Shown here in pieces: positions 1-15,167 of a stretch of 41,924 bases of DNA; positions within the stretch are counted from its first letter, which is position 1; every line of letters begins with the position of its first letter. The translations under genes were made by a program, and so were the position numbers. Origin of the DNA: a virus; IMG/VR virus record IMGVR_UViG_3300043331_000787, positions 1 to 41,924 of that record. The stretch is one strand, 5' to 3'. The notes beneath the pieces were generated by a model. That model did no database searches. It saw nothing but the letters and a program-made list of their open reading frames with translations, and was not told the origin of the DNA.

Positions 1-2
1 CG

Positions 3-125
3 GGCGGCAATGAAAGCGCTGCGCATGAAAGCAATTCGAAACGCTCGGCGCGCGGCGCGATCATTCAAAATGGCCAACTGCTTCGCGCACTAGGGGGGCA
101 CATGGATTACAAACGACTCGTATAG
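3..125 (+). CDS. 3' end of a hypothetical protein, cut by the window edge
   Basis: The frame beginning at base 3 is open from the left edge to a TAG at 123-125 and encodes about 40 residues with a mixed, hydrophilic composition (Ser, Asn and Gly rich). No family is recognisable from so short a piece. It contains a run of six G at 93-98. A shift at that run would carry translation into the frame that stays open to the TAA at 241-243, so the natural end of the protein is uncertain. No start codon for this gene lies inside the window. Confidence 0.4.
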   Translation, partial: GGNESAAHESNSKRSARGAIIQNGQLLRALGGHMDYKRLV

Positions 126-243
126 GAGCGACGGCGCAGGCGGCATACTGCCTCAGTATATTAATGATTACGACGCGACAACCGACATGCTATCCAATCG
201 TTTGCGCTACCTGTTTCCATGCCGCTTTATTCGAGAAATGTAA
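94..243 (+). other. Open frame without a usable start, possible frameshifted continuation of the edge gene
   Basis: This frame is open from just after a TAG at 91-93 to the TAA at 241-243 and encodes about 49 residues of ordinary composition. It has no ATG, GTG or TTG near its beginning; the first ATG is at 187 and leaves only 18 codons. It directly follows the G6 run at 93-98. Either a +1 shift at that run joins it to the ORF ending at 125, or it is a relic, or it uses a rare ATT start at 106. The stretch 126-255 holds nothing else I can support except the ribosome binding site ggaggt at 245-250 of the next gene. Confidence 0.25.
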
Positions 244-255
244 TGGAGGTATGAC

Positions 256-594
256 ATGGGCGTTGGAGCATATAACCGCACATCGCGGGCAATTATTAAG
301 CAAATCGAATTAGAGAATCGCGCCAAAGAATTTACCATGATGGAAGAACTAAACGGCTTGCCTAAATATCCCGACGCTGGCACGCCATTTGGCCCGATTC
401 AATTCGCCTACTCTCACGGCATTTGGTGGGCGGAATGCCCAACAACCGGCTTTGGATTCCATTACAAAACCCTACGGGAAGCCATTAAATCATGGCATGT
501 TGAAATCACGGGTTACAACTATGACACCAACCTTTGGACGGCAATCCCAACGAAGCGCCGCAGCCCTAGCGTTGGGCATCATTTACCGGAGTAA
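256..594 (+). CDS. Hypothetical protein, 112 aa
   Basis: This is a soluble, Trp/Tyr-rich protein of 112 residues with no signal peptide or membrane segment and no motif I can name. The start ATG is fixed by the strong ribosome binding site ggaggt six bases upstream (245-250). Its first 40 residues look helical (Lys/Glu/Ile rich), followed by a Pro/Gly/Tyr-rich region. It is the first complete gene of the rightward block and is followed by a 36-base gap carrying the ribosome binding site of the next gene. It is probably an accessory early phage gene, a role inferred only from its position. Confidence 0.6.
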   Translation: MGVGAYNRTSRAIIKQIELENRAKEFTMMEELNGLPKYPDAGTPFGPIQFAYSHGIWWAECPTTGFGFHYKTLREAIKSWHVEITGYNYDTNLWTAIPTKRRSPSVGHHLPE

Positions 595-630
595 CCACTA
601 ACCCCAAACAAGCGCAGGAGGGAAAAGACA

Positions 631-894
631 GTGGCAGTCATCATGAAACCAACAATTCACCGCAATGGCACATCGCCGGAAGAGCTGCTTAGCCAGGTAT
701 TGAAAGTGGCTGATGCGCTTCGCGATGCGATTACTGCTCTCTGCTGGGCGACGCCGAATGGACGTGACTATTACGTTCAAGACCCAGGCGCTCTTAAACT
801 CGCGCTCGAAGAACATAATGAGCGCGCCACGAAACTCCAAGAAGTGCTTGACGATATGCAAGCGCTGGCGATTCATATTTCAGACCATAGTTAA
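631..894 (+). CDS. Small phage protein of the 'NGTS ... PN-RDYY' type, 87 aa
   Basis: An 87-residue helical protein. The start is the GTG at 631, chosen for the AGGAGGG-like site at 616-622. The signature HRNGTS near the N-terminus, then PNGRDYY and a C-terminal EEHNERATKL helix, match from memory a widespread but uncharacterised small phage/prophage family; no biochemical role is known to me. Its stop at 892-894 is followed in the same frame by codons for NRTPRE and a second stop at 913-915, which is the first copy of the boundary repeat. The gene may therefore once have ended at 915, as the metalloprotease gene at 5516 does. Confidence 0.7.
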   Translation: MAVIMKPTIHRNGTSPEELLSQVLKVADALRDAITALCWATPNGRDYYVQDPGALKLALEEHNERATKLQEVLDDMQALAIHISDHS

Positions 895-896
895 AA

Positions 897-915
897 CCGA
901 ACGCCACGGGAATAA
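897..915 (+). repeat. Boundary repeat copy 1 (ccgaacgccacgggaataa)
   Basis: This is the first of four exact copies of ccgaacgccacgggaataa. Preceded by aaaa, it begins just after the stop of the 631 gene and lies 38 bases before the start at 954. Copies 1 and 2 also share the following bases gta. The repeat can be read as codons NRTPRE plus stop in the frame of the preceding gene. It has no strong stem (only CCG/CGG) and no resemblance to a -10/-35 promoter, so its role is open. Confidence 0.85.
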
Positions 916-926
916 GTAGGCGGAGA

Positions 927-944
927 GATTAACAACGAAGGGAG
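927..944 (+). promoter_or_regulatory. Repeated 5' leader with ribosome binding site (gattaacaacgaagggag)
   Basis: The 18-base string gattaacaacgaagggag occurs here and again at 8961-8978, each time just upstream of a start codon (954 and 8986). Its last part, gaagggag, is a good Shine-Dalgarno sequence. The identity extends beyond what ribosome binding needs, which suggests a shared leader or a copied gene boundary rather than chance. Confidence 0.6.
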
Positions 945-953
945 ATTCTTTTT

Positions 954-1100
954 ATGGCAGTAACAAAGGCTGAAGTATATGCGGCGCTTGCGAATAAGTA
1001 TGCCGCAAAGGCAGAAGCGCTTAAGGCGCTTTTGATTATCGTCAGCGCTCAGAAGAAAATCTTCGCGGCGCAGGTCGGGAAAGTGGGGTACGCACAATGA
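954..1100 (+). CDS. Small hypothetical protein, 48 aa
   Basis: A 48-residue, Ala/Lys-rich protein predicted to form one or two amphipathic helices, with a hydrophobic LLIIV stretch in the middle too short for a confident membrane span. The start ATG at 954 follows the leader gaagggag with about ten bases of T-rich spacing. Its stop overlaps the next start as ATGA at 1097-1100, which implies translational coupling. No family is recognised. The overlap and ribosome binding site make it more likely real than chance. Confidence 0.55.
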   Translation: MAVTKAEVYAALANKYAAKAEALKALLIIVSAQKKIFAAQVGKVGYAQ

Positions 1101-1246
1101 GCAACGCGCTACAATCGATTATCATCGCCAGCAAAACCGTGGCGGCATTCATCTTCGAGCCGATCTTCAAGGTCTGTGCGGCGTGTGGCATTGAAAAAGC
1201 CGTTCAGCATTGCGGACATTGCAGTCTGTGCTGCGATTGCGAATAA
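1097..1246 (+). CDS. Small Cys-rich protein, 49 aa, probable zinc binder
   Basis: A 49-residue protein whose start overlaps the previous stop (ATGA). The N-terminal half is hydrophobic and helical. The C-terminal half carries seven cysteines and two histidines: CAAC at about 27-30, then HCGHCSLCCDC at the end. Such CxxC spacing suggests binding of one or two zinc ions, possibly as a small nucleic-acid or protein-binding knuckle. Its stop TAA directly abuts the ATG at 1247, so the three small genes here form one coupled unit. The function is unknown. Confidence 0.55.
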   Translation: MSNALQSIIIASKTVAAFIFEPIFKVCAACGIEKAVQHCGHCSLCCDCE

Positions 1247-1462
1247 ATGATGCCGCTATACGTTGTCGATATCCGCGACCATGAAGCGCAGCGCGTGACC
1301 GAACGCTATTCCGTTATTGACGCGCGACGTTTTGTGTTTGTTCGCGCCGACACGGCGCGACAGGCGTTCGAACGCGCGCGCTGCTCTCATAACGAAATGA
1401 TAATGGAACCGGTGTGTCGATGCGCGTCGTGTGGCTATGTCTACGGAAAGGATGACCGCTAA
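1247..1462 (+). CDS. Small zinc-ribbon-like protein, 71 aa
   Basis: A 71-residue protein beginning immediately after the TAA of the preceding gene, with no clear ribosome binding site of its own, so reinitiation is likely. The N-terminal 45 residues look like a beta-alpha-beta fold (MPLYVVDIRD, then a helix with ARQAFERAR). The C-terminus holds CRCASCGYVYG, a rubredoxin/zinc-ribbon-like knuckle with three cysteines. An N-terminal fold plus short knuckle is common in small phage regulators and adaptor proteins, but no specific family is recognised. Confidence 0.55.
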   Translation: MMPLYVVDIRDHEAQRVTERYSVIDARRFVFVRADTARQAFERARCSHNEMIMEPVCRCASCGYVYGKDDR

Positions 1463-1465
1463 CCC

Positions 1466-1666
1466 ATGCTGAGTACCGAAAGAGAACTGCTCGAATTTAT
1501 AAATCAGGAATTGTTGGCCCACGACCGCCAGATGGCGAAGCTTACAAAAGACAATAGTCTGGAAGCGGCGTTTCACCTTGGTTACATAATGGCGCTCGAA
1601 ATGCTGGCCGTGCGGTTTCATCTTCCCGCAATAAAAGCGACTAAACAGATTCAACAAGGGGGGTAG
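1466..1666 (+). CDS. Hypothetical helical protein, 66 aa
   Basis: A 66-residue protein that is almost entirely helical by composition (Leu, Glu, Ala, Lys). The start ATG at 1466 lies four bases after the preceding stop and lacks a strong ribosome binding site, so coupling is probable. The stop TAG at 1664-1666 is embedded in the aaggggggtag sequence that serves as ribosome binding site of the next gene. No motif is recognised. Confidence 0.5.
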   Translation: MLSTERELLEFINQELLAHDRQMAKLTKDNSLEAAFHLGYIMALEMLAVRFHLPAIKATKQIQQGG

Positions 1667-1667
1667 A

Positions 1668-1991
1668 ATGGCCGAAGCAACTTGCAAGTGCCTAAACAAA
1701 CGATCTGGTAAATTAAACCGGGCGCGCGAACCGTTCAAATGCGATGAAATTCCTGGCCGCGTTCATTCTCAATGCCGCAAGCCATCCTGCTATCGCGACG
1801 TGGCGATAGACTTCGGCTCAATGAGCAAGGCAGACGCCATGAAGGCGCTCGCCAATCTAGGGCCAATGGAATGCCCCGGTAGCTTTCACACCGAGCTAAG
1901 CTTTTGGGGCTGGTGGCAGTTCGACAAGGTAGTCGCGGTGGCGTTTCCCGCGCAGAAAGACAAATCTCATGACGATCATGCGAATACATAG
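1668..1991 (+). CDS. Hypothetical Cys-rich protein, 107 aa
   Basis: A 107-residue protein with a strong GGGGGG ribosome binding site five to ten bases before its ATG. Cysteines sit in CKC near the N-terminus, then KCDE, QCRKPSC and ECPG, with one His after the last, which suggests a metal-stabilised fold. A Trp-rich patch (FWGWWQF) lies near residue 85. No family is recognised. Its last 23 bases overlap the next gene. Confidence 0.55.
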   Translation: MAEATCKCLNKRSGKLNRAREPFKCDEIPGRVHSQCRKPSCYRDVAIDFGSMSKADAMKALANLGPMECPGSFHTELSFWGWWQFDKVVAVAFPAQKDKSHDDHANT

Positions 1992-2262
1992 GGACATTTA
2001 CCCATGCACAGACCACGGGTTTACATGGGTCGAATGTTTTTGGTTCGAGCGTGACGGCAAATCATGTAGTCCAATAATCCCCGGTCCTGGTTGCACCGAA
2101 CGATTGAATCATATGCCGGGCGACTTCACGCCATGCTCTTCAATCGGAGATGAAATCAAACACTATGCGCCGGAAGGTGTTACCAGGACGGTAAAGACCG
2201 AAACGACGCACGAGGGGTTTTTCAAAGTCGGCACCGTCTGTATTGTGAAAGTGCCGGAATAA
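1969..2262 (+). CDS. Hypothetical protein, 97 aa
   Basis: A 97-residue soluble protein with aromatic and Cys residues (VECFWFERDG, then PGPGC and CSSIGDE) and a beta-rich C-terminus. The start is taken as the ATG at 1969, overlapping the upstream gene by 23 bases; an ATG at 1978 in the same frame is an alternative. There is no strong ribosome binding site, which fits coupling to the upstream gene. I do not recognise a family. Confidence 0.5.
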   Translation: MTIMRIHRDIYPCTDHGFTWVECFWFERDGKSCSPIIPGPGCTERLNHMPGDFTPCSSIGDEIKHYAPEGVTRTVKTETTHEGFFKVGTVCIVKVPE

Positions 2263-2282
2263 AAAACAGAAAGGGCAAGAGC

Positions 2283-2735
2283 ATGCCTAGCGCGTTTACT
2301 CGACAGTGGAAGATTCCATCGACCGATGGGCATCGCGTTTACACGGTATCGGTATCAGGCGATTTTTGGCAATGTAGCTGCATAGGCTGGACCCGCCATT
2401 ATCCACGCAAAGACTGTAAGCACATTCGTATAGCCATGCAGCGTGAAGCTGACATAACCATGCAGCGTGATGCTGACAATAGCTCGCCAGACGCGGCATA
2501 CAGTGCCGGTTTCGTCGCTGGTGAGCGAGCACTAAAAGAGCATACGGGGTATCGACTCACGGCAGCTTTTAATGATTGGCGGCGACGTTCCAACGTGAGC
2601 CATCTATCGCGCGATGCTTTTCAACGCGGCTATTGCGACGGCTATATGCCATCAGTCAAGCCACCAGAGCCAGTCGAGCCACCTACGGTGGACGCGCCTA
2701 GTTTCATGCGGTCAATCAGAAAAGACGAACTATGA
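2283..2735 (+). CDS. SWIM-type zinc-finger protein, 150 aa
   Basis: Residues 30-50 show CSC, a ten-residue gap, then CKH. This is the CxC...CxH pattern of the SWIM zinc finger known from transposases, Swi2/Snf2-type ATPases and RecQ-associated proteins, where it binds DNA or proteins. Here the finger stands almost alone at the N-terminus. A directly repeated octapeptide follows (MQREADIT then MQRDADNS, residues about 52-67), then a helical region and a Pro/Val-rich tail. The start ATG at 2283 follows aaagggcaag. The stop overlaps the methylase-like start as ATGA, so the two are probably co-translated, and the finger may help target that protein to DNA (inference). Confidence 0.65.
   Translation: MPSAFTRQWKIPSTDGHRVYTVSVSGDFWQCSCIGWTRHYPRKDCKHIRIAMQREADITMQRDADNSSPDAAYSAGFVAGERALKEHTGYRLTAAFNDWRRRSNVSHLSRDAFQRGYCDGYMPSVKPPEPVEPPTVDAPSFMRSIRKDEL
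2436..2483 (+). repeat. 24-base imperfect tandem duplication inside the SWIM gene
   Basis: Two adjacent 24-base units, 2436-2459 and 2460-2483, both begin atgcagcgtga and differ at only a few bases, giving MQREADIT and MQRDADNS in the protein. The duplication stays in frame and looks recent because the DNA identity is high. It lengthens the linker just after the zinc finger. Confidence 0.8.
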
Positions 2736-3550
2736 CACCCGTTGAATGCAAAAAAGAGTTTATCAAACTCGTCGAGCAACTATCACACCGACACAGCCGC
2801 TATACGGTATTTTCGGACTTTGTAAACATGGCGCATTGCGCCCTGCGAAAACCGTTCGAGCCTAAGCCGGATAAGCGCGAAGCGCTGGAAGCCGAGTATA
2901 TGCGCTCCATCAAGCGGTATAACCCTAGCGAAGTCGAATCGTTTCCGAAGATGCTCGCCTATACCCAAATGGCGCTATCCATCGGCGGTAATGACTTTTT
3001 GGGCGCGGTGGCGAGCGAACTGGAGATTCTTAATTCTGGCGCTGGGCAATTTTTTACGCCATACGACATTGCGCGAGCAATGGCCGAAATGACATTCGTC
3101 GATGGCTTCGACGACGCCATAAACGAGAAGGGCTATATTACGATCTGCGAACCGGCGTGCGGCGCTGGTTGTATGCTTATCGCCGTAGCTGATGTTATCG
3201 CGGCAAAAGGCTACAACGTTGCTAAATCTGCATTTATAGTCGCAACAGATATATCGGCGATTTGCTTTCACATGGCTTTCATTCAGCTCCACCTATACGG
3301 TGTTGCGGCGAAGGTCGTTCATGGCAATTCGCTGACCCTTGAGACATTCGATATAGCGATCACTGGCGGCATGTATGAATTTATCGAGGCGGACCTTGAG
3401 CGCCGGAAGAGAATTCCGAACGCCACGGGAATAAGTAACGGGAAGAGACAACGCAAAGGGGGTGATAATTCATGTCGAGATATGCAAAAGACCCGCGCTG
3501 GCTTACGGTCAAGTATCGCTGTCGCTGCGCGCGGTGCGGGACGGAAATAA
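2732..3550 (+). CDS. N6-adenine DNA methylase-like protein, catalytic motif IV not seen
   Basis: The first 230 residues resemble the HsdM/N6_Mtase fold. GQFFTPYDIARAM near residue 104 is the type I methylase entry motif. EPACGAG near 139 is the AdoMet-binding motif I, and VATDIS near 172 resembles motif II. The expected NPPY/F motif IV after the DIAITGG stretch (about 210) is missing, as in some short plasmid and phage methylase-like proteins, so it may bind AdoMet without methylating adenine. The final 45 residues read through boundary repeat copy 2 and overlap the next gene by 79 bases. A one-base shift near 3400-3415 would end the protein at 3434 with RTPRE, so the annotated tail is suspect. 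Confidence 0.75.
   Translation: MTPVECKKEFIKLVEQLSHRHSRYTVFSDFVNMAHCALRKPFEPKPDKREALEAEYMRSIKRYNPSEVESFPKMLAYTQMALSIGGNDFLGAVASELEILNSGAGQFFTPYDIARAMAEMTFVDGFDDAINEKGYITICEPACGAGCMLIAVADVIAAKGYNVAKSAFIVATDISAICFHMAFIQLHLYGVAAKVVHGNSLTLETFDIAITGGMYEFIEADLERRKRIPNATGISNGKRQRKGGDNSCRDMQKTRAGLRSSIAVAARGAGRK
3416..3434 (+). repeat. Boundary repeat copy 2
   Basis: This is the second exact copy of ccgaacgccacgggaataa, 37 bases before the start at 3472. With copy 1 it also shares the next bases gta. Here the RTPRE-stop reading is one frame off the upstream methylase-like ORF, unlike the other three copies. That suggests an indel in the tail of that gene or in a read. Confidence 0.85.
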
Positions 3551-3681
3551 AACCCGGCCAACGCGGTTTTTACTATCCGAATGGCAAGAAGCTGCTCTGC
3601 GACTTGCCGGATTGTGGCAAACAGGCGAGTGCGGAGTTTGAAGCTGCGGCTTTCGATGAAAGCCAGAATGGGAGTTTGTAA
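3472..3681 (+). CDS. Zinc-ribbon protein, 69 aa
   Basis: A 69-residue basic protein. CRCARCGTEI near residue 17 and CDLPDCG near residue 43 supply two Cys pairs about 25 residues apart, as in a zinc ribbon. The ATG at 3472 is preceded by aaagggggtgataattc, a strong ribosome binding site. The ORF ends TAA at 3679-3681, directly abutting the TTG start of the ParB gene, so the two are probably translated together. It could be a DNA-binding accessory to ParB, but that is inference. Confidence 0.65.
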   Translation: MSRYAKDPRWLTVKYRCRCARCGTEIKPGQRGFYYPNGKKLLCDLPDCGKQASAEFEAAAFDESQNGSL

Positions 3682-4539
3682 TTGGATGCAGAACTGCCAA
3701 TTGGCAAGATTTACCCTGACCCTACCCAACCTAGAAAACAATTCAACCAGATAAAACTCGAAGAGCTGGCCAAGTCGATTCTCGAAAACGGCCTTATCCA
3801 GCCAATTACAGTCCGGCCCGCGAACGCCGATGGCAATCACATGATTATCACTGGCGAGCGGCGCTGGCGTGCGCATGTTTTCGCTTGCATTCCGACTGTC
3901 AAATGTTATATCGATTATAGCGAGCGGAATAGTGCAGAGACATTGGCGGTCCAGCTTGTTGAGAATCTAGACCGCGACGACATGAACCCGATGGATACTG
4001 CTCGCGGGTTTCAGCGCCTATTAGACGCCGGATGGCATACCGATCAGGTGGCGTCTAGAATGGGATTGACGACGGATACCGTTGACCGCAAGCTAAAACT
4101 GCTTAAGCTGAATCAGCGCATTCAGTCGCAAGTCGAATCGGGACAACTCACCGAATCCGTAGGCGTGTGTCTATCCAAGCTATCCAGTGAGGGGCAATTT
4201 CTGGCGCTTCGGAAGATCAAGGGCAAGTCTTACTCTGATGCTGCGCCGGTGATTGAGGCTATTCTGATGCAAGAACAGCAAGTCGATTTGTTTGCTGCGC
4301 CAGAGTCTAAGCGCGACCTGAATAAAAAGGTCCGCGCCTACAACATGGCCATGCTGGGCATTATTGGTTTTTTGAAAAGCATCACCAGCGACGATTATCA
4401 CGTCTTCGCCAACGCGCTCGATGACGGCAAGCTTGGCAAGCGCATCGATGAAATCGATCTGGCCATCAAAGGATTACGGCGAGTGCAAGGTGAATTGAAA
4501 ACGTATCACGCGGGCAAGAAACTTCGGCGGGTGGCATAA
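3682..4539 (+). CDS. ParB/Spo0J-family DNA-binding protein
   Basis: A 285-residue protein starting at a TTG that abuts the previous stop, with gggag 7-11 bases upstream and no nearby in-frame ATG. Residues 5-75 form the ParB N-terminal domain: the PDPTQPRKQF start, LAKSILENGLIQPI, and GERRWRA at about 58-64, the arginine box that binds CTP or parS partners in ParB proteins. Residues 90-150 contain the helix-turn-helix region (DQVASRMGLTTDTVDRKL). The C-terminal 130 residues are helical, where ParB proteins often dimerise. No ParA/Walker ATPase gene is adjacent, so a regulatory or DNA-protection role is as likely as partitioning. Confidence 0.88.
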   Translation: MDAELPIGKIYPDPTQPRKQFNQIKLEELAKSILENGLIQPITVRPANADGNHMIITGERRWRAHVFACIPTVKCYIDYSERNSAETLAVQLVENLDRDDMNPMDTARGFQRLLDAGWHTDQVASRMGLTTDTVDRKLKLLKLNQRIQSQVESGQLTESVGVCLSKLSSEGQFLALRKIKGKSYSDAAPVIEAILMQEQQVDLFAAPESKRDLNKKVRAYNMAMLGIIGFLKSITSDDYHVFANALDDGKLGKRIDEIDLAIKGLRRVQGELKTYHAGKKLRRVA

Positions 4540-4574
4540 CCCGGTCAAAGCCATCAAAGGGGGTCACGACAAAA

Positions 4575-4844
4575 ATGAGAATACGACTAACGGCAACTGA
4601 GGCTCAATATCTTCTCGATAAAATCAACCACGATTCGGATACGATGGTTCAAATATGGTCGGCAGTCCGCCGTGACATGCTCGATAGCGTATTGCGCAAG
4701 AAGCTGAGCACGCCGAACGGGACCGAAACGCTTAGTTCGCATATCGAGACAGAACGCGAGCGGCACGGCTTAACGCCGCGCGAAATAGGCTTTATCGCGA
4801 GGGCATGGAAGGCTGCTCAAGCATCAGAAGATAACGGGAGTTGA
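4575..4844 (+). CDS. Hypothetical protein, 89 aa
   Basis: An 89-residue helical, charged protein. The ATG at 4575 follows aaagggggtcacgacaaaa, whose GGGGG is slightly far (about 10 bases) but strong. The protein reads like a small regulatory or interaction module: a LTATEAQYLLDKI helix at the N-terminus and a TPREIGFIARAWKAA helix at the C-terminus. It lies three bases from the next gene. No family is recognised. Confidence 0.55.
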   Translation: MRIRLTATEAQYLLDKINHDSDTMVQIWSAVRRDMLDSVLRKKLSTPNGTETLSSHIETERERHGLTPREIGFIARAWKAAQASEDNGS

Positions 4845-4847
4845 AAA

Positions 4848-5288
4848 ATGATTTGTCGAAAATGTGGATATAGGGGCAAGGCGCATGCCGAAGATTCCAC
4901 GGCCTGCGTGGCCAAGGTCGCATTGATCGACCGCATCGTCGAGGCAGCGCGCAAGCCGGTGCCTGAAGTGGTTCAATCGATTGTCATGAAGCACAAAACA
5001 ACCGGTAAGGAATACAGCCTATTCGGCATGCCATTCGGCTACAACAGCAACGACTTCGAACCGGTTGTTCGCGGCTTCGTGTTCCAAGACCGCAACGGTA
5101 CTCGTTATGGTGCAGTTGAAGCTACCGCTGAGTTGCTGCGCAAACGATACACCGACAACCAGGACGCTATCGCTGCGGAATTCAGGCGAGAGTTGATCAA
5201 CATGCCAGCGCCGCGTTTTATGGCGCAGGTTGATTATTGGCTTAAGCCGAAGCTAAACGGGAGTGGCCATGATGCACGCCGAGGTTAA
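4848..5288 (+). CDS. Hypothetical protein with N-terminal zinc knuckle, 146 aa
   Basis: A 146-residue protein opening with MICRKCGYRGKAH and a further Cys at about 20, consistent with one zinc-binding knuckle. The rest mixes beta strands (residues 45-80) and helices (85-130). The start ATG at 4848 follows ggagttgaaa in the preceding gene's stop region. The C-terminal 20 bases overlap the next gene. I do not recognise the family. Confidence 0.55.
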   Translation: MICRKCGYRGKAHAEDSTACVAKVALIDRIVEAARKPVPEVVQSIVMKHKTTGKEYSLFGMPFGYNSNDFEPVVRGFVFQDRNGTRYGAVEATAELLRKRYTDNQDAIAAEFRRELINMPAPRFMAQVDYWLKPKLNGSGHDARRG

Positions 5289-5535
5289 GAACTGCTCGAT
5301 AGACAAAGCAGCTCGAAATGAGGGAACGACTACGCGACGGGGCAGGGCATATGTCGCGCTATGCGCCATGTCGTTTACTGTCGATGAACGAGAGGCTGCT
5401 GAACGCAAGGCGTGGTTGGCAGCGGATGCCGTACCTGACAACGGTCGCCCGTGGTGCGCGTGGCATGCATTGGCGCAAGTCGATAAATCAGTCTGTTACT
5501 GTGCGGCGTGCGTCCATGATAAGCGATCAGCTTAA
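5269..5535 (+). CDS. Hypothetical Cys-rich protein, 88 aa
   Basis: An 88-residue protein with a C-terminal CAWH ... CYCAACVHD cluster (residues about 60-84) that could bind zinc. The start is taken as the ATG at 5269, about six bases after the ribosome binding site acgggag; an upstream GTG at 5263 and the ATG at 5272 are alternatives. It overlaps the upstream gene by 20 bases and the downstream metalloprotease gene by 20 bases in another frame, an unusually tight arrangement that makes the exact ends less certain. Confidence 0.45.
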   Translation: MMHAEVKNCSIDKAARNEGTTTRRGRAYVALCAMSFTVDEREAAERKAWLAADAVPDNGRPWCAWHALAQVDKSVCYCAACVHDKRSA

Positions 5536-5932
5536 AACAATACTTGACTCACTGGTCGTACCCAGCGACCGCGATTTCAAGGTCTTGCTAAAACCGGATA
5601 TCCTGAAGCGGCGCGGCTCATATTCGCACGCAACTAGGACCATTATAATTTACGGCGCGGGCTACAGGTCGGACACGGCGCTCTTGGCTACTGCGCTTCA
5701 TGAGCTGGCGCATCATATCAATGGCAAAAACCATGAGCGAATGTGGATACGCCGTCGAATGGCTGGGCAACGAATCGACTGGCATGGCCGTACTTTTGTG
5801 CTTGTCCTAATGCACATTGTAAGCCAGGCCAACATTTTGTGGCGTAAAAAACTTGGCGGATGGTTTTTCTTTGACCCTGACCATCCGCGCTTCTCTGTCG
5901 AATTCACCAAAAACCGAACGCCACGGGAATAA
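5516..5932 (+). CDS. SprT-like zinc metalloprotease, 138 aa
   Basis: The motif LHELAHHINGKNHERMW near residues 61-76 contains HExxH plus a downstream His, the zinc-binding and catalytic arrangement of SprT-like/minigluzincin peptidases. The 138-residue size is that of a single catalytic domain. SprT-like proteins in cellular organisms cut proteins crosslinked to DNA; in phages the substrate is unknown. The ATG at 5516 is preferred over an open extension to 5318 because that stretch is covered by the previous gene. The C-terminus ends NRTPRE and stops within boundary repeat copy 3, so the repeat supplies the natural protein end here. Confidence 0.75.
   Translation: MISDQLKTILDSLVVPSDRDFKVLLKPDILKRRGSYSHATRTIIIYGAGYRSDTALLATALHELAHHINGKNHERMWIRRRMAGQRIDWHGRTFVLVLMHIVSQANILWRKKLGGWFFFDPDHPRFSVEFTKNRTPRE
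5914..5932 (+). repeat. Boundary repeat copy 3
   Basis: This is the third exact copy of ccgaacgccacgggaataa, coding for the last residues and stop of the metalloprotease gene and ending 10 bases before the ATG at 5943. Copies 3 and 4 are identical over 32 bases (5910-5941 and 7124-7155), including the aaaggggcgaa tail, which acts as the ribosome binding site of the next gene here. Confidence 0.85.
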
Positions 5933-5942
5933 AGGGGCGAAC

Positions 5943-6164
5943 ATGGCCAACAGATTGCCAATCGTAAAACTTATTATCAACGCGAGTCAGGATAGTGACG
6001 GTCAAGAACATGGCGTCGAGCGTTTGTTCTTCGCCGACGTGCGGCTCAAAGAGTATCGTTCCGTTGATGGCCAAGCGCCGTGGGTTCTCTTTGAGTCGGA
6101 AGTCGATGGCGACATGCTCGATATTATCGAACAGTATGGAATAGCGAAAGGGGGCACAGCATGA
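5943..6164 (+). CDS. Hypothetical protein, 73 aa
   Basis: A 73-residue acidic protein, beta-rich at the start (RLPIVKLIINA) with a short helix at the end. The start ATG at 5943 is placed by aaggggcg just upstream, which belongs to boundary repeat copy 3; the open frame upstream to 5853 is only read-through of that repeat. The stop overlaps the next start as ATGA. It is the first gene of a coupled set leading into the Ycf35-like gene. No family is recognised. Confidence 0.6.
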   Translation: MANRLPIVKLIINASQDSDGQEHGVERLFFADVRLKEYRSVDGQAPWVLFESEVDGDMLDIIEQYGIAKGGTA

Positions 6165-6397
6165 CAACGGCGAACCCGCCGAACCGAATCGACCTGCTTC
6201 AACATATCATCGAGACTGGCACCGCGATGGAGATCGAAGATGTGATAGTGGACCCAATAACAGCGCAGGCAGTATTGCTTGTGCATAACACGCTTACCGA
6301 AACGCATCGGGCGCAGTTTGCGGCAATGTCTTTAGAGACCGCTGCTGCGCTGGCGCATCGTTTGGTAGCAAAATTTGTGACAGGAGATTCATTATGA
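6161..6397 (+). CDS. Hypothetical protein, 78 aa
   Basis: A 78-residue protein with a helical N-terminus, a central beta segment (QAVLLVHNTL) and an Ala-rich C-terminal helix. It is joined to both neighbours by ATGA overlaps (6161-6164 and 6394-6397), so it is translated together with the 5943 gene and the DUF1257-like gene at 6394. That coupling suggests a shared pathway, but nothing in the sequence shows the role. Confidence 0.6.
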   Translation: MTTANPPNRIDLLQHIIETGTAMEIEDVIVDPITAQAVLLVHNTLTETHRAQFAAMSLETAAALAHRLVAKFVTGDSL

Positions 6398-6786
6398 GCC
6401 ATATCGCAACATTTAAAACCGGCCTCAAGGGGGTGGACCCTGAACTGATTACGAGAGCGTTCATGGCTCTCGTTCAAGACCGTCCCGATTGGGTTTTCAC
6501 GCAAACGGTGTTCGACTATACGATGAACAACCCGACTGAATGCATCGCTGCCGTAATCACGCCGAACACCCAGCCGTTTCCATATGGCGTCGGCGTCAAT
6601 ATCGATGCCAATGGCGAATTGGTGTTTGTCGGCGACCTGGACATGCAGCCCTGGCAATCCTTGAAACAGGATATCCAGAATTACTATGTCGCGCTTGGTT
6701 ACGCCGCGTGCGGCGACGCTACGATTAGCGTTCACGATGCGGTGAAATCCGACGACGTTCAAATCGAGTTGGAAATCAGTCTGTAG
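6394..6786 (+). CDS. Ycf35/DUF1257-like protein, 130 aa
   Basis: The MSHIATFKT start and the later YGVGVNIDANGELVFVGD block, followed by the helix QDIQNYYVALGYAA, match the layout of DUF1257 (Ycf35) proteins: an MSH..xIKT N-terminus, a GF..N.dG.YE.V.D hairpin, then a Y.y....A helix and a beta-rich end. These 120-140-residue proteins occur in cyanobacteria, algal plastids and various bacteria, and their function is unknown. The next genes encode a DUF2997-like protein and a Ycf46-like AAA+ ATPase, families I recall as neighbours of DUF1257 in bacterial genomes. The match is by eye and somewhat remote. Confidence 0.6.
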   Translation: MSHIATFKTGLKGVDPELITRAFMALVQDRPDWVFTQTVFDYTMNNPTECIAAVITPNTQPFPYGVGVNIDANGELVFVGDLDMQPWQSLKQDIQNYYVALGYAACGDATISVHDAVKSDDVQIELEISL

Positions 6787-6811
6787 TTTTTACAACAAAT
6801 CGGGGGGGCTT

Positions 6812-7021
6812 ATGCCAAGTATGACAGTCAAAATTCTGAAGAACGGAAATGTCGTCACGGAAATGCATGGTTTCGAAGGCCAAATGTGCGTAGCCAAAGC
6901 CGAAGAAGTCATCGCCAAGTTAAAAGCGCAGGGCATTCACGTCGATATCGACACCTTCCACTTGAAGTCAGCAGAGTGCGGCACCTTGACGCACGTTGCC
7001 GACGTTGAGTCTGGCAAGTGA
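6812..7021 (+). CDS. DUF2997-like small protein, 69 aa
   Basis: A 69-residue protein with the pattern VKILKNGNVVTEMHGFEGQMC followed by a helix and a short beta tail. DUF2997 proteins have the same layout: a strand, a G-turn-strand ending in GF.G..C, then a helix. They are found beside DUF1257 genes. The ATG at 6812 follows a GGGGGG ribosome binding site. The stop overlaps the GTG of the next small membrane protein. The function is unknown; the context suggests a small partner of the AAA+ ATPase downstream. Confidence 0.6.
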   Translation: MPSMTVKILKNGNVVTEMHGFEGQMCVAKAEEVIAKLKAQGIHVDIDTFHLKSAECGTLTHVADVESGK

Positions 7022-7146
7022 TACTTATCGTGGTACTGTTCGCGGTCTATGCCCTAGTCGTGGCGCTTGACACTTATTTTTTCTGGTCGCGACTATGGGC
7101 TAGCCTGCGACGCTTTATCGAAGAAAACCGAACGCCACGGGAATAA
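7018..7146 (+). CDS. Small single-span membrane protein, 42 aa
   Basis: A 42-residue ORF from GTG 7018, overlapping the previous stop as GTGA. Residues 1-23 are strongly hydrophobic (VILIVVLFAVYALVVAL) and should span the membrane, followed by a basic tail that would face the cytoplasm. It ends with ENRTPRE and the stop of boundary repeat copy 4, as the metalloprotease gene does with copy 3. No family is recognised. Position, start coupling and a coherent membrane segment make it plausible despite its size. Confidence 0.55.
   Translation: MILIVVLFAVYALVVALDTYFFWSRLWASLRRFIEENRTPRE
7128..7146 (+). repeat. Boundary repeat copy 4
   Basis: This is the fourth exact copy of ccgaacgccacgggaataa, encoding the C-terminus and stop of the 7018 membrane protein and lying 49 bases before the GTG start of the AAA+ gene. 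It is identical to copy 3 over 32 bases (7124-7155). The ORF that reads through it upstream of 7196 is not coding. Confidence 0.85.
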
Positions 7147-7195
7147 AGGGGCGAAGGGACAGGAATGCAAAACCACAACAAAGGGGGATTTAAAC

Positions 7196-8938
7196 GTGGC
7201 TGATAAAAAACCGGGCTGGTACGAAGAGATCGAACAAAAATTCGCCGCTGGCATCTCGCATACTTTTATCATACATGGCGACACTGGTGGATATGTCGAA
7301 GTCGGCGATAACTACGTTCCGCTACACTTCGGCATTTCGGCGCTGCTCAAGGGTCGTCAAGCGGTTGTCTTCTATAACCGTTCGGCGGGCTGGCGTTTTC
7401 GAAGCGCCGAAGAAGAGCAGTTAATCAAAACGCTCTTGGGCAACGCGGTATCTGGTGGCGGTGGCGGTGGTCTTGCCGGGGCCGTCCAGCAGCAGCAGGG
7501 CGCATTTCCTAAAGACCCAGTACGCTCGATGCCGCTGTTTGAAAAACTGTTGAAGACTGATCGTGGCGCTGCGCGCCTGGCCATTGTTATTGAATATCCA
7601 GAATCAATCTTTGCGGCTGGGAAGTGGGATGGCGCAGGTGCGAATGCGGAGCTGGGCGCGCTTGTCGTAACGTTGCTTCGATGGGCGAAAGACGATGAAG
7701 TTGCGCAGCAGGGTCATCCTATTATTCTGATTTGCGCGGATGACTTCGAGAGTTTGCATCCGTCGATTCGGTCGCCGCAAGCGCGCATCGAGCCAATCTA
7801 CATTGCATTGCCGAACCTTGTTCAGCGCGAAGAGTTTATCAACTGGTATCTCAACAAAAAGAAAACTATCAAGATGAATGGCGTGACCGCGCGGCAATTG
7901 GCCAATGCGACTGCCGGGCTATCGCTTCTTATGATAGAAGACATTCTTCTCCGCTCAGACCGTGCCAATGGCCTCGACTTGTCTTTCGTCAAAGATCGCA
8001 AAGACGAAATCATCAAAGCGCAGTTTGGAGATATTCTGGAGATACAGGAACCGCGCCACGGTTGGGAAGCGGTCGGTGGTCAAGACCATGTGGTCGAGTT
8101 TCTGACAAAGCACGTTATTAATCCGCTTCGCACTGGGAACAAACAGAGCGCGCCGATGGGCGTTTTGATGCCTGGCCCGCCTGGCACCGGCAAGTCAATT
8201 ATTGCAGAAGCACTGGCTAAAGAAGCTGGGGTCAATTTCCTTGCTATGCATCCTGGTCGCTTGATGGGTGGCATCGTCGGACAAACCGAAAAGAACACAG
8301 AGCGCGTGCTGCGCGCCATAAAGGGCGCTGCGCCGTGCATCGTCTTTATCGATGAATTCGACAAGGCCATCCCGCGTGAAGACGCCTACCAGGGCGATAG
8401 CGGCGTAGCAAGCCGATTCTTGCAGCGCTTGCAGGACTTCATGTCGGACACGCATCATCGCGGCGAGATCGTTTTCCTTGGCGCGACCAATCGCCCTGAT
8501 CGAATCAGCGCGGCGCTTAAACGTGCTGGCCGATTTGACAAGAAGATTCCTATTTTGCCGGGCGACGAAAAACAGCGAGAGGGGGTGTTCAAGGCAGTCA
8601 TTTCAAAAATGAACCTTCACTATAATGGCAAGAAACTAAAAGACCTTGCCCTAAAAACCGAAGGGTATGTCGGCGCTGATATTGAAGCTATCGTAGTGAA
8701 GGCATGCGAGCTGGCGGATAGCCAGACCATTACCGATAGCAACTTGACCGAAGCGCTAGACTGTATGATTCCATCGGTGTCTAAGGCCGACATCGACTTT
8801 CAGACCGCACTGGCAATCAAGGAATGCAACGATCTATCCCAGCTTCCGCCGCGCTATCGCAAGATGGATAAAGAAGCTGTCAATAATCTGATCGGCTCGT
8901 ATGTCGAGCGCGGCGACGCATCGGGCCGCACGCTGTAA
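7196..8938 (+). CDS. Ycf46-like AAA+ ATPase, 580 aa
   Basis: The start is the GTG at 7196, which has aaaggggg nine bases upstream; the open frame to 7067 runs back through repeat copy 4. Residues 1-270 look like a degenerate P-loop domain: a GDTGGY loop in place of Walker A, an acidic strand LAIVIEYPES, and ILICADDF. Residues 285-520 are an active-looking AAA+ module with GPPGTGKS near 325, Walker B CIVFIDEFDK near 381, sensor-1 GATNRPD near 432 and arginines in KRAGRFDKK. A degenerate domain followed by an FtsH/Cdc48-type AAA+ module is the Ycf46 layout. Ahead lie DUF1257-like and DUF2997-like genes. The substrate is unknown; remodelling of a protein complex is the family-level expectation. 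Confidence 0.85.
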   Translation: MADKKPGWYEEIEQKFAAGISHTFIIHGDTGGYVEVGDNYVPLHFGISALLKGRQAVVFYNRSAGWRFRSAEEEQLIKTLLGNAVSGGGGGGLAGAVQQQQGAFPKDPVRSMPLFEKLLKTDRGAARLAIVIEYPESIFAAGKWDGAGANAELGALVVTLLRWAKDDEVAQQGHPIILICADDFESLHPSIRSPQARIEPIYIALPNLVQREEFINWYLNKKKTIKMNGVTARQLANATAGLSLLMIEDILLRSDRANGLDLSFVKDRKDEIIKAQFGDILEIQEPRHGWEAVGGQDHVVEFLTKHVINPLRTGNKQSAPMGVLMPGPPGTGKSIIAEALAKEAGVNFLAMHPGRLMGGIVGQTEKNTERVLRAIKGAAPCIVFIDEFDKAIPREDAYQGDSGVASRFLQRLQDFMSDTHHRGEIVFLGATNRPDRISAALKRAGRFDKKIPILPGDEKQREGVFKAVISKMNLHYNGKKLKDLALKTEGYVGADIEAIVVKACELADSQTITDSNLTEALDCMIPSVSKADIDFQTALAIKECNDLSQLPPRYRKMDKEAVNNLIGSYVERGDASGRTL

Positions 8939-8960
8939 AACCTGTTTACTCACAATTAAC

Positions 8961-8978
8961 GATTAACAACGAAGGGAG
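8961..8978 (+). promoter_or_regulatory. Repeated 5' leader, second copy (gattaacaacgaagggag)
   Basis: This is identical over 18 bases to 927-944 and again immediately precedes a start codon (ATG 8986). It supplies the ribosome binding site gaagggag. Half of it is duplicated upstream as acaattaac at 8952-8960. Confidence 0.6.
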
Positions 8979-8985
8979 TATTGCG

Positions 8986-10020
8986 ATGGCATCGACGCAA
9001 CGCGCAATCGGGCATATCAAGCCGGATTGGGGTCATATCCTGACCGAGAACGGGCTTCTCTATAAGCTCGAAATTCATTGGTACAAGGGACAGGTCAAGA
9101 TTGACCCAGCCGATCTTGACCTGGAGCATGCCGTTGATGAAAAATTCAACGAGCTGTTTCAGCTTGGACGCAAATCGCTCATACCGAAAATCGTCTTCAA
9201 CGAATTCCATCGTATCGAGACTCGTGGGCGCACTGAGCTGGAGAAGTATTTCGATACGCCATTTGGTTCCTTCGTGCCCTATACAATCGATGAAGCCTTC
9301 AACGCCAAGATGGCGGCTGTCGAGCGCGCCTTTTGGGAAGCCTTCGACTCGCTTTATCAACACTACAATACGTATCGGCGCAACACGTTGGCAAACTACG
9401 AAGCCATCGCCGATAAGGTATTCGTCAATGGCTCAAAGGCCAAAATGACCGAACGCCTGCTCGCGCATGTTGAGTCGCTCATGCCGCATCGTGATAACTT
9501 GCGGCATCGGTTCAGCTTCGTCTTGACGCCATACCATATCACTACGCCGAAAGAGATTCTGGCATTAGAGAAGGCCGCTGAGGGCGAAGCCATCAAATTC
9601 AAGGTCAATCGTAAATTGGCCGAGACTTATCAGGCAAAATCATCACAGGAAATCAATAAGTTTTTGGCCGACTCTTCTAAGAAGCTCTATGGCATGGTCG
9701 ATGAACTGGCGAAACAGGCGCTCGCATCAATCAAGAAAAACGACGGCGTGCTTGTGCCACGGCTCTCGACCACGCTCAAAAACATGGTGGTCAATTTCCA
9801 GAACATGAATTTCTTGAAATCCTTTGGCATGGGCCAGGATATCGAGAACCGTCTTGTCGAGTTGCGAAAGTTTATCGCCGATACCGATGGCGCTGGCATG
9901 GAAGACCGTGGCTTGCAGGTTAAAGAGAAACTCAGCGAACTGACTAAGGCGCTCAAGGCTTCAATTCGCAACGACGCTGGCAATTTCATCCGCGAAATCC
10001 GGCGAGATATGGAGCTGTGA
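8986..10020 (+). CDS. Helical hypothetical protein next to the AAA+ ATPase, 344 aa
   Basis: A 344-residue, mostly helical, charged protein with no signal peptide or membrane segment. Long heptad-like stretches (about 80-150 and 205-260) suggest coiled coils. The ATG follows the strong leader gaagggag. It lies 47 bases after the ATPase, so co-expression is likely. Bacterial MoxR-type ATPase operons often carry a helical partner of this size (the DUF3150-type proteins), but I cannot confirm homology by reading. The role is probably as substrate or adaptor of the ATPase, by context only. Confidence 0.7.
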   Translation: MASTQRAIGHIKPDWGHILTENGLLYKLEIHWYKGQVKIDPADLDLEHAVDEKFNELFQLGRKSLIPKIVFNEFHRIETRGRTELEKYFDTPFGSFVPYTIDEAFNAKMAAVERAFWEAFDSLYQHYNTYRRNTLANYEAIADKVFVNGSKAKMTERLLAHVESLMPHRDNLRHRFSFVLTPYHITTPKEILALEKAAEGEAIKFKVNRKLAETYQAKSSQEINKFLADSSKKLYGMVDELAKQALASIKKNDGVLVPRLSTTLKNMVVNFQNMNFLKSFGMGQDIENRLVELRKFIADTDGAGMEDRGLQVKEKLSELTKALKASIRNDAGNFIREIRRDMEL

Positions 10021-10075
10021 TTTCTAGGGCGAAAAGGAAGTTTTTTTGATTTTGAATTGATGGGGGGTTTTTGAT

Positions 10076-10264
10076 ATGCAGGAATATTTTTGGAAAGCAC
10101 ATCAGGCGGAACCGCCACCGTTGCGACGATGGGTGGAGTATCATTCGCGGGAGTGGCAGGTGTTGCTGGAGATGGGTTGGATGACGTGGAGTGTGGATGA
10201 TGGTCAAGTGGAGATGATTCATTGCACGCATGGCGGGAGTTGTCGTTGTATTTATGTTGGGTGA
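10076..10264 (+). CDS. Small Trp-rich hypothetical protein, 62 aa
   Basis: A 62-residue protein with six Trp residues and a C-terminal HCTHGGSCRC cluster that could bind a metal. The ATG at 10076 follows gatgggggg, with a T-rich spacer. The 55 bases before it (10021-10075) hold no other gene; a run of seven T at 10041-10047 has no preceding hairpin. The family is unknown. Confidence 0.5.
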   Translation: MQEYFWKAHQAEPPPLRRWVEYHSREWQVLLEMGWMTWSVDDGQVEMIHCTHGGSCRCIYVG

Positions 10265-10293
10265 TGAACGCGCCAAATAAGGGAGAGGGACAA

Positions 10294-10476
10294 ATGAGGA
10301 TAATCAGGGTTGAATTTGATACCGAAATACCGGACGGCGTTGAGGCTAACGATATCCTTGCTTGGCTAGAGTTTGAACTACACGCCAACGGGATACTTCT
10401 ACATACCAATCCCATGATTCGCACGCCACTAACCGCCATTTTTAATTCGATCACTTTCACTGAGAAGGAAGCATAA
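10294..10476 (+). CDS. Hypothetical protein, 60 aa
   Basis: A 60-residue protein with a beta strand start (MRIIRVEFDT) and a helix (DILAWLEFELHANG), suggesting a small alpha-beta fold. I chose the ATG at 10294 because gggagaggga lies just upstream; an in-frame ATG at 10264 lacks such a site. The stop overlaps the next start (TAATG). No family is recognised. Confidence 0.55.
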   Translation: MRIIRVEFDTEIPDGVEANDILAWLEFELHANGILLHTNPMIRTPLTAIFNSITFTEKEA

Positions 10477-10946
10477 TGACGCCGTTTGAGTTGTTCACTA
10501 TAAAACGAGACACCGCCAACGAAGATAAATTGGTCGCTGTCTATCATGAGTTAGTCCCGCATCTTAGCGAAGCTGACATTCGCCAGATGATTACAGACGC
10601 TGTGACAAACTGCGACCTGTTTGTCAACGACACCTATCAAGTAGTTCGCCGCAGTTGCGGCGCGATGTATCACCTGTCGATCAAACGACTCGACCAAGAC
10701 CCAATTCACGATTGGCGAGACTTGCAGGCAATCAAAAACGAGCTGGTCGGAAGCGAGAATGAAGCCGTCGAGCTGTATCCAGCCGAGAGCCGGATAGTGG
10801 ACGCGGCGAATCAGTACCATTTATGGGTCGCGAAAGACCCGGCGTATCGCTTTCCGTTTGGTTTCACGCAGTCTGATGATTGCCCACGGATGGTGTTCGA
10901 TAGCGCCACAGCCGAAAAAGTAGGAGCGCGGCAACGCAAACTATAA
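10476..10946 (+). CDS. Conserved phage protein with 'ELYPAESR ... NQYHLW' motif, 156 aa
   Basis: Residues 65-120 contain MYHLSIKRLD, then HDWRDLQAIKNELVG, then AVELYPAESR and NQYHLW, followed by PFGF. I recall this ordered set of motifs from a large phage and actinobacterial family annotated only as a domain of unknown function, I think DUF7694. Its role is not known. The N-terminal 60 residues are helical and specific to this version. It is translationally coupled to the 10294 gene by TAATG. Confidence 0.75.
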   Translation: MTPFELFTIKRDTANEDKLVAVYHELVPHLSEADIRQMITDAVTNCDLFVNDTYQVVRRSCGAMYHLSIKRLDQDPIHDWRDLQAIKNELVGSENEAVELYPAESRIVDAANQYHLWVAKDPAYRFPFGFTQSDDCPRMVFDSATAEKVGARQRKL

Positions 10947-10948
10947 CA

Positions 10949-12417: not shown

Positions 12418-12418
12418 G
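12386..12418 (+). repeat. Three 11-base tandem repeats (tatgggataag) at a stop/start junction
   Basis: Units lie at 12386-12396, 12397-12407 and 12408-12418, and a further TATG follows. The methyltransferase-like gene stops inside the third unit (TAA 12415-12417) and the next gene starts at the ATG at 12420. Each unit contains ATG and TAA in different frames. A change in unit number would alter the end of the upstream protein. Confidence 0.85.
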
Positions 12419-12419
12419 T

Positions 12420-12707
12420 ATGAACGTAACCATTAGAAAAACCGACGCGGCAAACCAAAGTTTTGGCCGTGGCTCTGATAACACTACATTGTCTGCTCGT
12501 TGGGCAATCTATATTGATGGAACTCAAATTGGTTTCGCAAAAGCGAGACCACGACAAGCCTTCGCTCCCAGTTGTTGGGAGTTTTATCCAAACGAGAATG
12601 CTTCACGTTATTTGGTTTCCCACAACTTGAGTCTTTATCGTTCTCGTCGAGCTTTAGTTGCGGCGATTGAAGAGCGTTTAAGAAACGAACAGGAGCTGGA
12701 CGCATGA
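12420..12707 (+). CDS. Hypothetical protein, 95 aa
   Basis: A 95-residue protein with a beta-rich N-terminal two-thirds (ARWAIYIDGTQIGFAK, then CWEFYP) and a basic helix at the end (RRALVAAIEERLRNEQEL). It starts two bases after the previous stop and overlaps the next gene by ATGA, so three genes in a row are coupled. No family is recognised. Confidence 0.55.
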   Translation: MNVTIRKTDAANQSFGRGSDNTTLSARWAIYIDGTQIGFAKARPRQAFAPSCWEFYPNENASRYLVSHNLSLYRSRRALVAAIEERLRNEQELDA

Positions 12708-13724: not shown

Positions 13725-13748
13725 GCCAGAAGGTAAAAGGTGAACATC

Positions 13749-14279
13749 ATGAATCCACGAATCGCAAAACTTCCAACGTATAAGGGCATTCCGATTGTCT
13801 TCTTTGCTTCCATCGATAAAAATGGCGTGCCCGATTTCAAAATCACCGACGAAGATAAACGGCGACGCTGCGCTACGGAATGCCTGTGTTGGATATGTGG
13901 TGACAGTTTAACTCAGCCAATATGCTTCATCGGCGGGCCGCGTGGCTGCGAAGCCGGGCTATTCACCGATGGCCCGATGCACGAAAATTGCGCCTATGAC
14001 GCAATGGAGATGTGCCCGTGGCTCTGCGGTCGCATGGACTATGCGCAACATTTCAACCTTGACCGTCATGCCAAACCGGTAACACTTGCTACGACAGGGC
14101 GAACGCATCAAGCGCCCGACAAGGTAGGAATATATTTCTGCTATGGATTTGATGTCGTCGATATACCGCCGATGCCGCAACGTGGCTTTTTGGGATGCTG
14201 GTTGTTTAAGGCATACCGGCCAACGCGGTTAATCTGGCGAGACCGCAAGCCTCGACAGCAACCCGGCCAACACGTCTAA
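13749..14279 (+). CDS. Zinc-binding phage protein of the 'CWICG ... H..CA..A...CP' type, 176 aa
   Basis: Residues 40-95 carry CLCWICGD, then GCEAG, PMHENCAYDAMEMCPWLCG. This Cys/His arrangement matches from memory an uncharacterised family of small phage/prophage proteins with CWVCG then H..CA.YA...CPFL; zinc binding is likely and activity unknown. The start is taken as the ATG at 13749 rather than the GTG at 13740 because the aaggtaaaagg site fits it. Its 3' end overlaps the leftward sigma-like gene by 51 bases, tail to tail. Confidence 0.65.
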   Translation: MNPRIAKLPTYKGIPIVFFASIDKNGVPDFKITDEDKRRRCATECLCWICGDSLTQPICFIGGPRGCEAGLFTDGPMHENCAYDAMEMCPWLCGRMDYAQHFNLDRHAKPVTLATTGRTHQAPDKVGIYFCYGFDVVDIPPMPQRGFLGCWLFKAYRPTRLIWRDRKPRQQPGQHV

Positions 14280-15167
14280 CAAATATTCTTGGTAGTCTTC
14301 CGGATAGCTATTCTCACAAGCCCTATGTAGCCGTTCGATGTTGAGCGCGAAACGCCGCTCGGCGTCGGACTGGCCGCTTAGGGCTTTTTTTGTATCCGCC
14401 ATCTGACTGCGAATCTTTCTTATCACTTCGCCGACCGTTTTGAAGTCGTTATAGGCTCGGTCAACGCTGATGCCAAGCTTATCGGCGATTTGACGAAAAC
14501 TCATATTGTCGAAAGTCTTCATCCGGTAGGTCTTGATTTGCCGCTTTGCGATACTCACCTTTTTCCATGTTTCGCGCTTACGTTCTTTTTCGCGAAGCTT
14601 GGCCCTTGCCTGTTTTAGATTCGCGCCAAACTCCCTTTCAATTTGATCGAGCAATGCATCGCGTTGCAGTAGTGCCCGCGCGGCTTCATGCACGTCTTCG
14701 ATTGACCCGGTTGGAATAGTTTCATCGATCTGCGAGACTTCAGGGAACCGCTCGATGATCTTCTCGCGCTCTTCATCGGTCGTTGCAGCATGAATCAAAT
14801 CGTACAGGGTCCGCGTGCCCTTTAGCCCCTTGGAACGCTCCCAATGAATATGTTTTTGAATGCCGAATTTAATCAGCGGGCGAATGTATTTCACCAAGTC
14901 GCCCTTGCTTGGCTTGTAGCGTCGCAACCCCTCTAGGGCATGCTCCATGCCAGCCAGCCATGCGTCATCAATCGAATTGATATGCGTGCCCTTGGCGATT
15001 TGGTGAAACGCGCTTTGCATCGACCACTTCGACAGTTTTTCATAATGCTGATTAAACAGGTTTTTCACGCGAGGCGTATAATTGCTCGTGTAGCCGGACA
15101 CGCGCCTGCCGTTCCTAACATAATCGCCGACGCGCCTGGTTGCTTTAATCATGACTCCGATTAGCAT
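14229..15167 (-). CDS. Sigma-70-like protein, 312 aa
   Basis: Residues about 60-108 (DDAWLAGMEHALEGLRRY, then KPSKGDLVKYIRPLIKFGI) resemble sigma-70 region 2, where DL.QEG...L..A..+Y.P..G..F..Y....I..+I is the pattern. Residues 215-252 (FDNMSFRQIADKLGISVDRAY) fit the region 4 helix-turn-helix. The middle is highly charged. It may direct host RNA polymerase to phage promoters, but sequence similarity is weak, so a sigma-like or general DNA-binding protein is an alternative. The ATG at 15167 follows gaggaaatctgaca, two bases after the previous stop. It is the last gene of the leftward block and overlaps the rightward one. Confidence 0.6.
   Translation of the reverse strand: MLIGVMIKATRRVGDYVRNGRRVSGYTSNYTPRVKNLFNQHYEKLSKWSMQSAFHQIAKGTHINSIDDAWLAGMEHALEGLRRYKPSKGDLVKYIRPLIKFGIQKHIHWERSKGLKGTRTLYDLIHAATTDEEREKIIERFPEVSQIDETIPTGSIEDVHEAARALLQRDALLDQIEREFGANLKQARAKLREKERKRETWKKVSIAKRQIKTYRMKTFDNMSFRQIADKLGISVDRAYNDFKTVGEVIRKIRSQMADTKKALSGQSDAERRFALNIERLHRACENSYPEDYQEYLLDVLAGLLSRLAVSPD

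Follow-up and report, generated by a model that had tools for sequence, protein, structure and literature searches.

Start-associated sequences (SAS) of cluster K mycobacteriophages have the sequence GGGATAGGAGCCC, lie 3-7 bp from the start codon and contain the Shine-Dalgarno sequence, and the stoperators of mycobacteriophage L5 have been contrasted with them (PMC3203893). In the same cluster, extended start-associated sequences (ESAS) form pairs of 17-bp imperfect inverted repeats separated by a short spacer (PMC3203893), and in phage Adephagia they lie around SigA-like -35 and -10 boxes and were later read as carrying promoters (PMC11373665). In phages phiEco32 and 7-11, the phage-sigma promoters are motifs of about 9-12 bp (TAATGTATA and TGATGT; PMC4331800). 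Here we describe a 19-bp element, CCGAACGCCACGGGAATAA, in IMG/VR virus record IMGVR_UViG_3300043331_000787 (positions 1 to 41,924, the whole stretch analysed, hereafter the window), a fragment of a tailed phage. We conclude with very high confidence that it is a real, selected nucleic-acid element bound to the starts of downstream genes, and from its sequence features we lean towards the interpretation that it is a phage-specific promoter, repeated along a region of small rightward genes.

The element was found in four exact copies, all on the + strand (897-915, 3416-3434, 5914-5932 and 7128-7146). A preliminary description of this sequence had proposed a search with one mismatch as a check; a search of the 41,924 bases allowing up to 3 mismatches gave no weaker copy elsewhere, and the mean number expected by chance in shuffled sequence was 0.00. 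The four positions given in that description, its view that the element marks gene boundaries, and the lengths it reported were all borne out: copies 3 and 4 are the same over 32 nt (5910-5941 and 7124-7155), copies 1 and 2 have 22 nt in common, and the next start codon follows copies 1 to 4 after 38, 37, 10 and 49 nt, that is, within the reported 10 to 49 bases. All of the copies fall within the rightward gene region (window 1-14279), which contains about 33 small genes, including those for a DNA methylase, a ParB-family protein, an AAA ATPase and a DUF3150 protein; the remainder of the window is leftward and includes genes for an endolysin, a large pyrophosphatase/SNF2 protein and a protein with a zeta-toxin domain.

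Relatives carrying the element were sought in IMG/VR. An exact scan with the 19-mer returned one contig of 5,026 bases with two identical copies (L001), as well as a single match, due to chance, to a tail gene that is not related, and the capsid of L001 led to a 103,292-base contig (G001), the two capsids being 78% identical. G001 is very probably a complete genome, because it has a 123-base direct terminal repeat; it is that of a contractile-tailed phage (a tail sheath is present), it is colinear and syntenic with the window, and it contains three diverged copies of the element (CGGAACACYRCGGGAATAW), which are CGGAACACTGCGGGAATAA at 46561 and 48378 and CGGAACACCACGGGAATAT at 53786. Since no part of L001 overlaps the window, the two may be pieces of a single phage species, and the comparison therefore covers two lineages. 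L001 and G001 were the only other carriers in the IMG/VR scans, and no more were obtained by alignments of the AAA, capsid and sigma proteins or by scanning IMG/VR and the genome collection with degenerate DNA patterns; matches in L002, L024 and L025 proved to be chance matches within coding sequence. Comparison with cultured phages gave no nucleotide match, and likewise no match for the sigma protein described below.

The conserved unit exceeds 19 bp: AAWW on the 5' side and a purine-rich tail on the 3' side also recur. The four extended units in the window are:

893..927, + strand: W1, the extended unit (AAAA, the 19-mer and the purine-rich tail), orthologous to G001 48378; predicted +1 at about 922, next start codon at 954.
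3412..3446, + strand: W2, a GAATT variant with 25 nt in common with L001 3099-3123; predicted +1 at about 3441, next start at 3472.
5910..5944, + strand: W3, overlapping the last codons of the open reading frame (ORF) 5516-5932 and orthologous to G001 53786; predicted +1 at about 5939, just 4 nt before the ATG at 5943.
7124..7158, + strand: W4, 35 nt of which are identical to L001 4386-4420, overlapping the end of ORF 7018-7146; predicted +1 at about 7153, next start the GTG at 7196 (AAA ATPase).

With the two copies in L001 (L1a at 3104, and L1b) and the three in G001 (G1 at 46561, G2 at 48378 and G3 at 53786), there are nine sites. Every one of the nine has a start codon 10-58 bp downstream in the coding direction, and for the four copies in the window the probability of such start spacing under random placement was about 2e-4, or about 1e-5 when orientation was included. 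Alignment of the sites gave the block AAWWCSGAACRCYRCGGGAATAW followed by the purine-rich tail, and a weight matrix run over both strands of the three sequences scored the nine sites at 35.8 bits or more and everything else at 13.2 bits or less. Three pairs of sites are at orthologous positions: W1 and G001 48378, and W3 and G001 53786, each with the same upstream gene, and L001 3104 and G001 46561, which are the first sites past the divergent junction. The 23-bp core was retained in 19/23, 20/23 and 17/23 positions, respectively (74-87%), whereas the flanking 30-mers were identical in 5-12 of 30 positions, about background. The consensus of the element has shifted jointly at all copies between the two phages.

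The upstream context of the sites is variable, consisting of a stop codon, a gene tail in differing frames or no gene, whereas the downstream context is constant, always a start codon in the same direction. Because the core was kept while the flanks diverged and the upstream context varied, we consider it very highly probable, judging from these alignments, that selection acts on the nucleic acid and is linked to the downstream gene. The preliminary description had placed every copy at or just after the end of a gene. This holds in three different ways: copy 1 comes after a stop codon, copies 3 and 4 read NRTPRE-stop, and copy 2 is crossed in another frame by the methylase ORF 2732-3550. The case that would have undone its view, an ordinary protein tail inherited by duplicated genes, was ruled out because the reading frame differs between copies and some copies are not translated: the sites encode NRTPRE-stop (W3 and W4), EHHGNI (G3) or IPNATGI (W2), W1, G2 and L1b come after a stop codon, and L001 3104 and G001 46561 have no upstream gene.

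The sequence of the sites suggests how the element might work as a promoter. With positions counted from the predicted start, AAWWCSGAACRC at about -29 to -18 would be an upstream recognition box and CGGGAATAW, spanning about -15 to -7, would be a -10-like box, followed by a putative G-rich discriminator of 6 nt and a pyrimidine-purine initiator, and then by a short leader that would carry the ribosome-binding site; each copy would initiate transcription of the gene or gene block directly downstream. In the alignment, a pyrimidine-purine step lies six bases past GAATAW, the pyrimidine column being occupied in 8/9 sites within a tract that is otherwise nearly all purine. This column was matched in 0 of 100000 within-row shuffles, a value that is indicative only, as the rows are related. 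The distance from GAATAW to the pyrimidine-purine step is the one that separates a -10 box from the start of transcription. The predicted leaders are 18-52 nt long, with the exception of W3 (4 nt).

The head of the rightward region also bears on this interpretation. In L001, a strong sigma-70 promoter with 11 of the 12 consensus bases (TTGACA-18-TATAAG) precedes the leftward operon at the divergent junction, whereas the best on the rightward strand is 8/12 with 15-nt spacing and overlaps the element; on the rightward strand of G001, no sigma-70 match above 8/12 was found at the head of the region. Therefore, with no better rightward sigma-70 match, no other candidate for a promoter at the head of the region is as good as the element. 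A scan for TTGACA and TATAAT hexamers 16-18 nt apart gave no match at the window copies, and the earlier statement that the element is not promoter-like thus stands with respect to the sigma-70 consensus; beyond that consensus it does not, as the sites fit a phage-specific promoter. The TTGACA-type promoter (11/12 in L001) belongs to the leftward late operon (L001 2934-3087 and G001 46386-46532, both on the - strand), and in both phages it is followed by a hairpin and a run of T just before the first gene, which suggests antitermination control of that operon.

The second half of the proposal concerns how the element would be read: a factor of the phage would redirect the RNA polymerase of the host to it, and the most plausible such factor is the following protein:

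14229..15167, - strand: phage sigma-70-family protein of 312 amino acids, candidate recognition factor, 53% identical to its ortholog at G001 62399-63367.

The model TIGR02937 (sigma70-ECF) matched the proteins of the window and G001 with 7e-7 and 1e-8 over most of their length, below its curated cut-off; the G001 protein also matched FliA_WhiG (2e-6) and, in Pfam, Sigma70_r4_2 (1e-5) and region 2 (0.009). There is exactly one sigma-70-family candidate in each of the two genomes. The sigma-like protein is put forward tentatively as the reader of the element, an assignment that we regard as possible and less probable than the promoter role itself. There is also a slim chance that it is produced together with the structural proteins, is carried into the cell by the virion and redirects the host RNA polymerase at once; if so, the 23-bp promoter class would be the immediate-early promoter of the phage, and the sigma-like protein would play the role of the injected polymerase in phage N4.

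Several observations weigh against the promoter interpretation or the sigma link. About 23 contiguous bases are conserved, whereas a simple sigma promoter would have two boxes and a free spacer, and AAWW and GAATAW are 13 nt apart rather than 16-18. The 4-nt leader predicted for W3 is without an AAGGGG ribosome-binding site. The sigma gene lies away from the sites, at the distal end of the leftward cluster, its scores are under the family cut-offs, and its AlphaFold model was of low confidence (mean predicted local distance difference test score 50) and was not used; the link to the element consists of co-occurrence in two genomes. The nine sites are not independent, since the copies share ancestry, and they come from the two lineages compared.

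The alternative that survives best, although we consider it unlikely, is an operator, to which a phage repressor or activator (a ParB-family protein or another early regulator, for example) would bind while transcription starts elsewhere, as with the L5 stoperators. The element is oriented, asymmetric, multi-copy and sharply defined, its CSGAA...GGGAA direct repeat has an 11-bp period, equal to one helical turn, and a DNA-binding protein of the ParB family is encoded in the same region of both phages:

3682..4539, + strand: ParB-family protein, alternative DNA-binding candidate (PF02195, PF17762; TIGR00180).

However, ParB sites are usually palindromic, a pure operator needs no tight association with a downstream start, no -10-like box and no pyrimidine-purine step, and no rightward sigma-70 promoter above 8/12 from which transcription could start was found at the head of the region. 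The preliminary description was right in suggesting that the element may be a protein-binding site.

The element always sits just 5' of a start codon, with a ribosome-binding leader rich in purines after it, and this position would also be expected of a signal in the RNA, that is, a part of the 5' leader acting on translation, on mRNA processing or stability, or by pairing with a small RNA. A second leader motif recurs as well, and one copy (G3) folds better than its shuffles (z -3.1). Nevertheless, folding of the nine sites yielded no common structure, in agreement with the earlier remark that there is no strong stem, and in every G001 copy a change from C to G at position 2 disrupts the only possible short stem, CCG...CGG. 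Pairing with the ribosome is not evident, and the start lies anywhere between 10 and 58 nt away. We therefore hold a role at the RNA level to be quite improbable. The second motif is:

927..944, + strand: short start-associated motif GATTAACAACGAAGGGAG (leader/ribosome-binding segment), downstream of W1.

It repeats at window 8961-8978 without the 19-mer, and its recurrence, as GATTAACAACGAAGGGAG in the window and as TTATTAACGGGCGCAAC in G001, is independent of the element; it also occurs in L011 at 6805, 14549 and 18236.

The earlier suggestion that the element is a recombination seam for the exchange of accessory gene modules was not supported and is very improbable, although some local features are of the kind that such a seam would leave. 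Mapping of gene-content changes, which had been proposed as a check, placed 4/4 window copies at junctions between conserved and non-conserved genes, but 19 of the 32 early gene boundaries are such junctions, so that the result has p = 0.11, and most rearranged boundaries are without a copy. Identical units of 32-35 nt occur in unrelated contexts; at the orthologous positions, in contrast, the copies stayed in place while the flanks diverged, which is the behaviour of a functional site that is retained. Neither a tyrosine nor a serine recombinase (PF00589, PF00239) was found in G001 and G000, the controls being positive. Recombination near a copy did occur at least once, at W2, because the small gene that follows it (3472-3681) has moved relative to G001, where its ortholog is at 47916-48113, the sole clear gene-order break in the early region. 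The N6-methylase ORF 2732-3550 has no stop before W2 and crosses it out of frame into the next gene, as if joined there, and its natural end may have been lost at W2. Identical units of this length would be able to seed homologous recombination as a by-product, which is not the same as a function.

The approximately 23 contiguous conserved bases, with an A-rich step at their end and a G-rich start after it, look like the promoter of a phage single-subunit RNA polymerase of the T7 or N4 type. This reading is highly improbable and, unless the polymerase is a very divergent one, largely refuted, since no such polymerase was found: PF00940 was absent from the complete G001 and the window (T7 control positive), and searches for polymerase motifs were empty.

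Four further differences and features of the two phages were recorded. G001 has an HNH-like gene (55629-56351) directly 5' of the AAA ATPase gene, where the window has ORF 7018-7146 and W4. At G001 61204-61227, AAAACGGAACGC is joined to TATAAGAGGGCG, resembling a copy of the element minus 8 internal bases, at one gene's end and about 50 nt before an HNH-like gene. The pyrophosphatase/SNF2 (DarB-like) protein has 1655 amino acids in the window (32510-37477) and 2770 in G001 (74522-82834); therefore, about 1100 amino acids have been gained or lost between them. In the leftward late-gene cluster, window 30382-32220 encodes a 612-amino-acid protein with a zeta-toxin-domain kinase region.

Returning to the described systems, the -10 box of FliA/WhiG-type sigma-28 promoters is GCCGATAA, which the GGGAATAA of the element resembles, and the G001 sigma protein scores to FliA_WhiG; the difference is that a TAAA -35 box is missing where one would be expected, AAWW being about 4 nt closer. 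Like the element, the stoperators of L5 are asymmetric and oriented, with many copies in short gaps, but their sequence is another one, and no tyrosine or serine integrase was found in G001, in which a repressor was not searched for, so that there is no sign of the lysogeny that stoperators serve. As in phiEco32 and 7-11, a putative phage-specific promoter motif is repeated before gene blocks in a phage that encodes a sigma-70-family protein, but the element has 23 conserved bp, and the pairing with the sigma factor is inferred here.

SAS and ESAS come nearest among the described systems, and the phage-sigma promoters of phiEco32 and 7-11 are close as well; the element has its placement in common with all of these, but not their sequence or the structure that defines them. 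Like SAS, the element is a short asymmetric repeat adjoining the start codons of small non-structural genes; unlike SAS, it lies 10-58 bp from the start, is separate from the ribosome-binding site and is unrelated in sequence. The resemblance in placement to mycobacteriophage start-associated sequences noted in the preliminary description was upheld: as expected of ESAS, 9/9 sites are in one orientation, 5' of gene starts and in the non-structural region. ESAS are likewise repeated, mostly in the same orientation, upstream of gene starts in the non-structural half of the genome, and are suspected promoters (PMC3203893; PMC11373665), and their consensus shifts between subclusters as that of the element does between the window and G001. 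The element differs from ESAS in being one asymmetric block with no inverted repeat, no predicted pairs and no sigma-70 hexamers. With the nine sites, the predicted start site and the single candidate factor named here can be tested in vitro without the host, and the element offers a testable regulatory code for a phage lineage for which no close cultured relative was found. The element belongs to the broad kind of repeated phage-specific promoters or start-associated motifs, being neither SAS nor ESAS, and it adds to the class of phage start-associated repeats a case in which the consensus has changed jointly at all copies.

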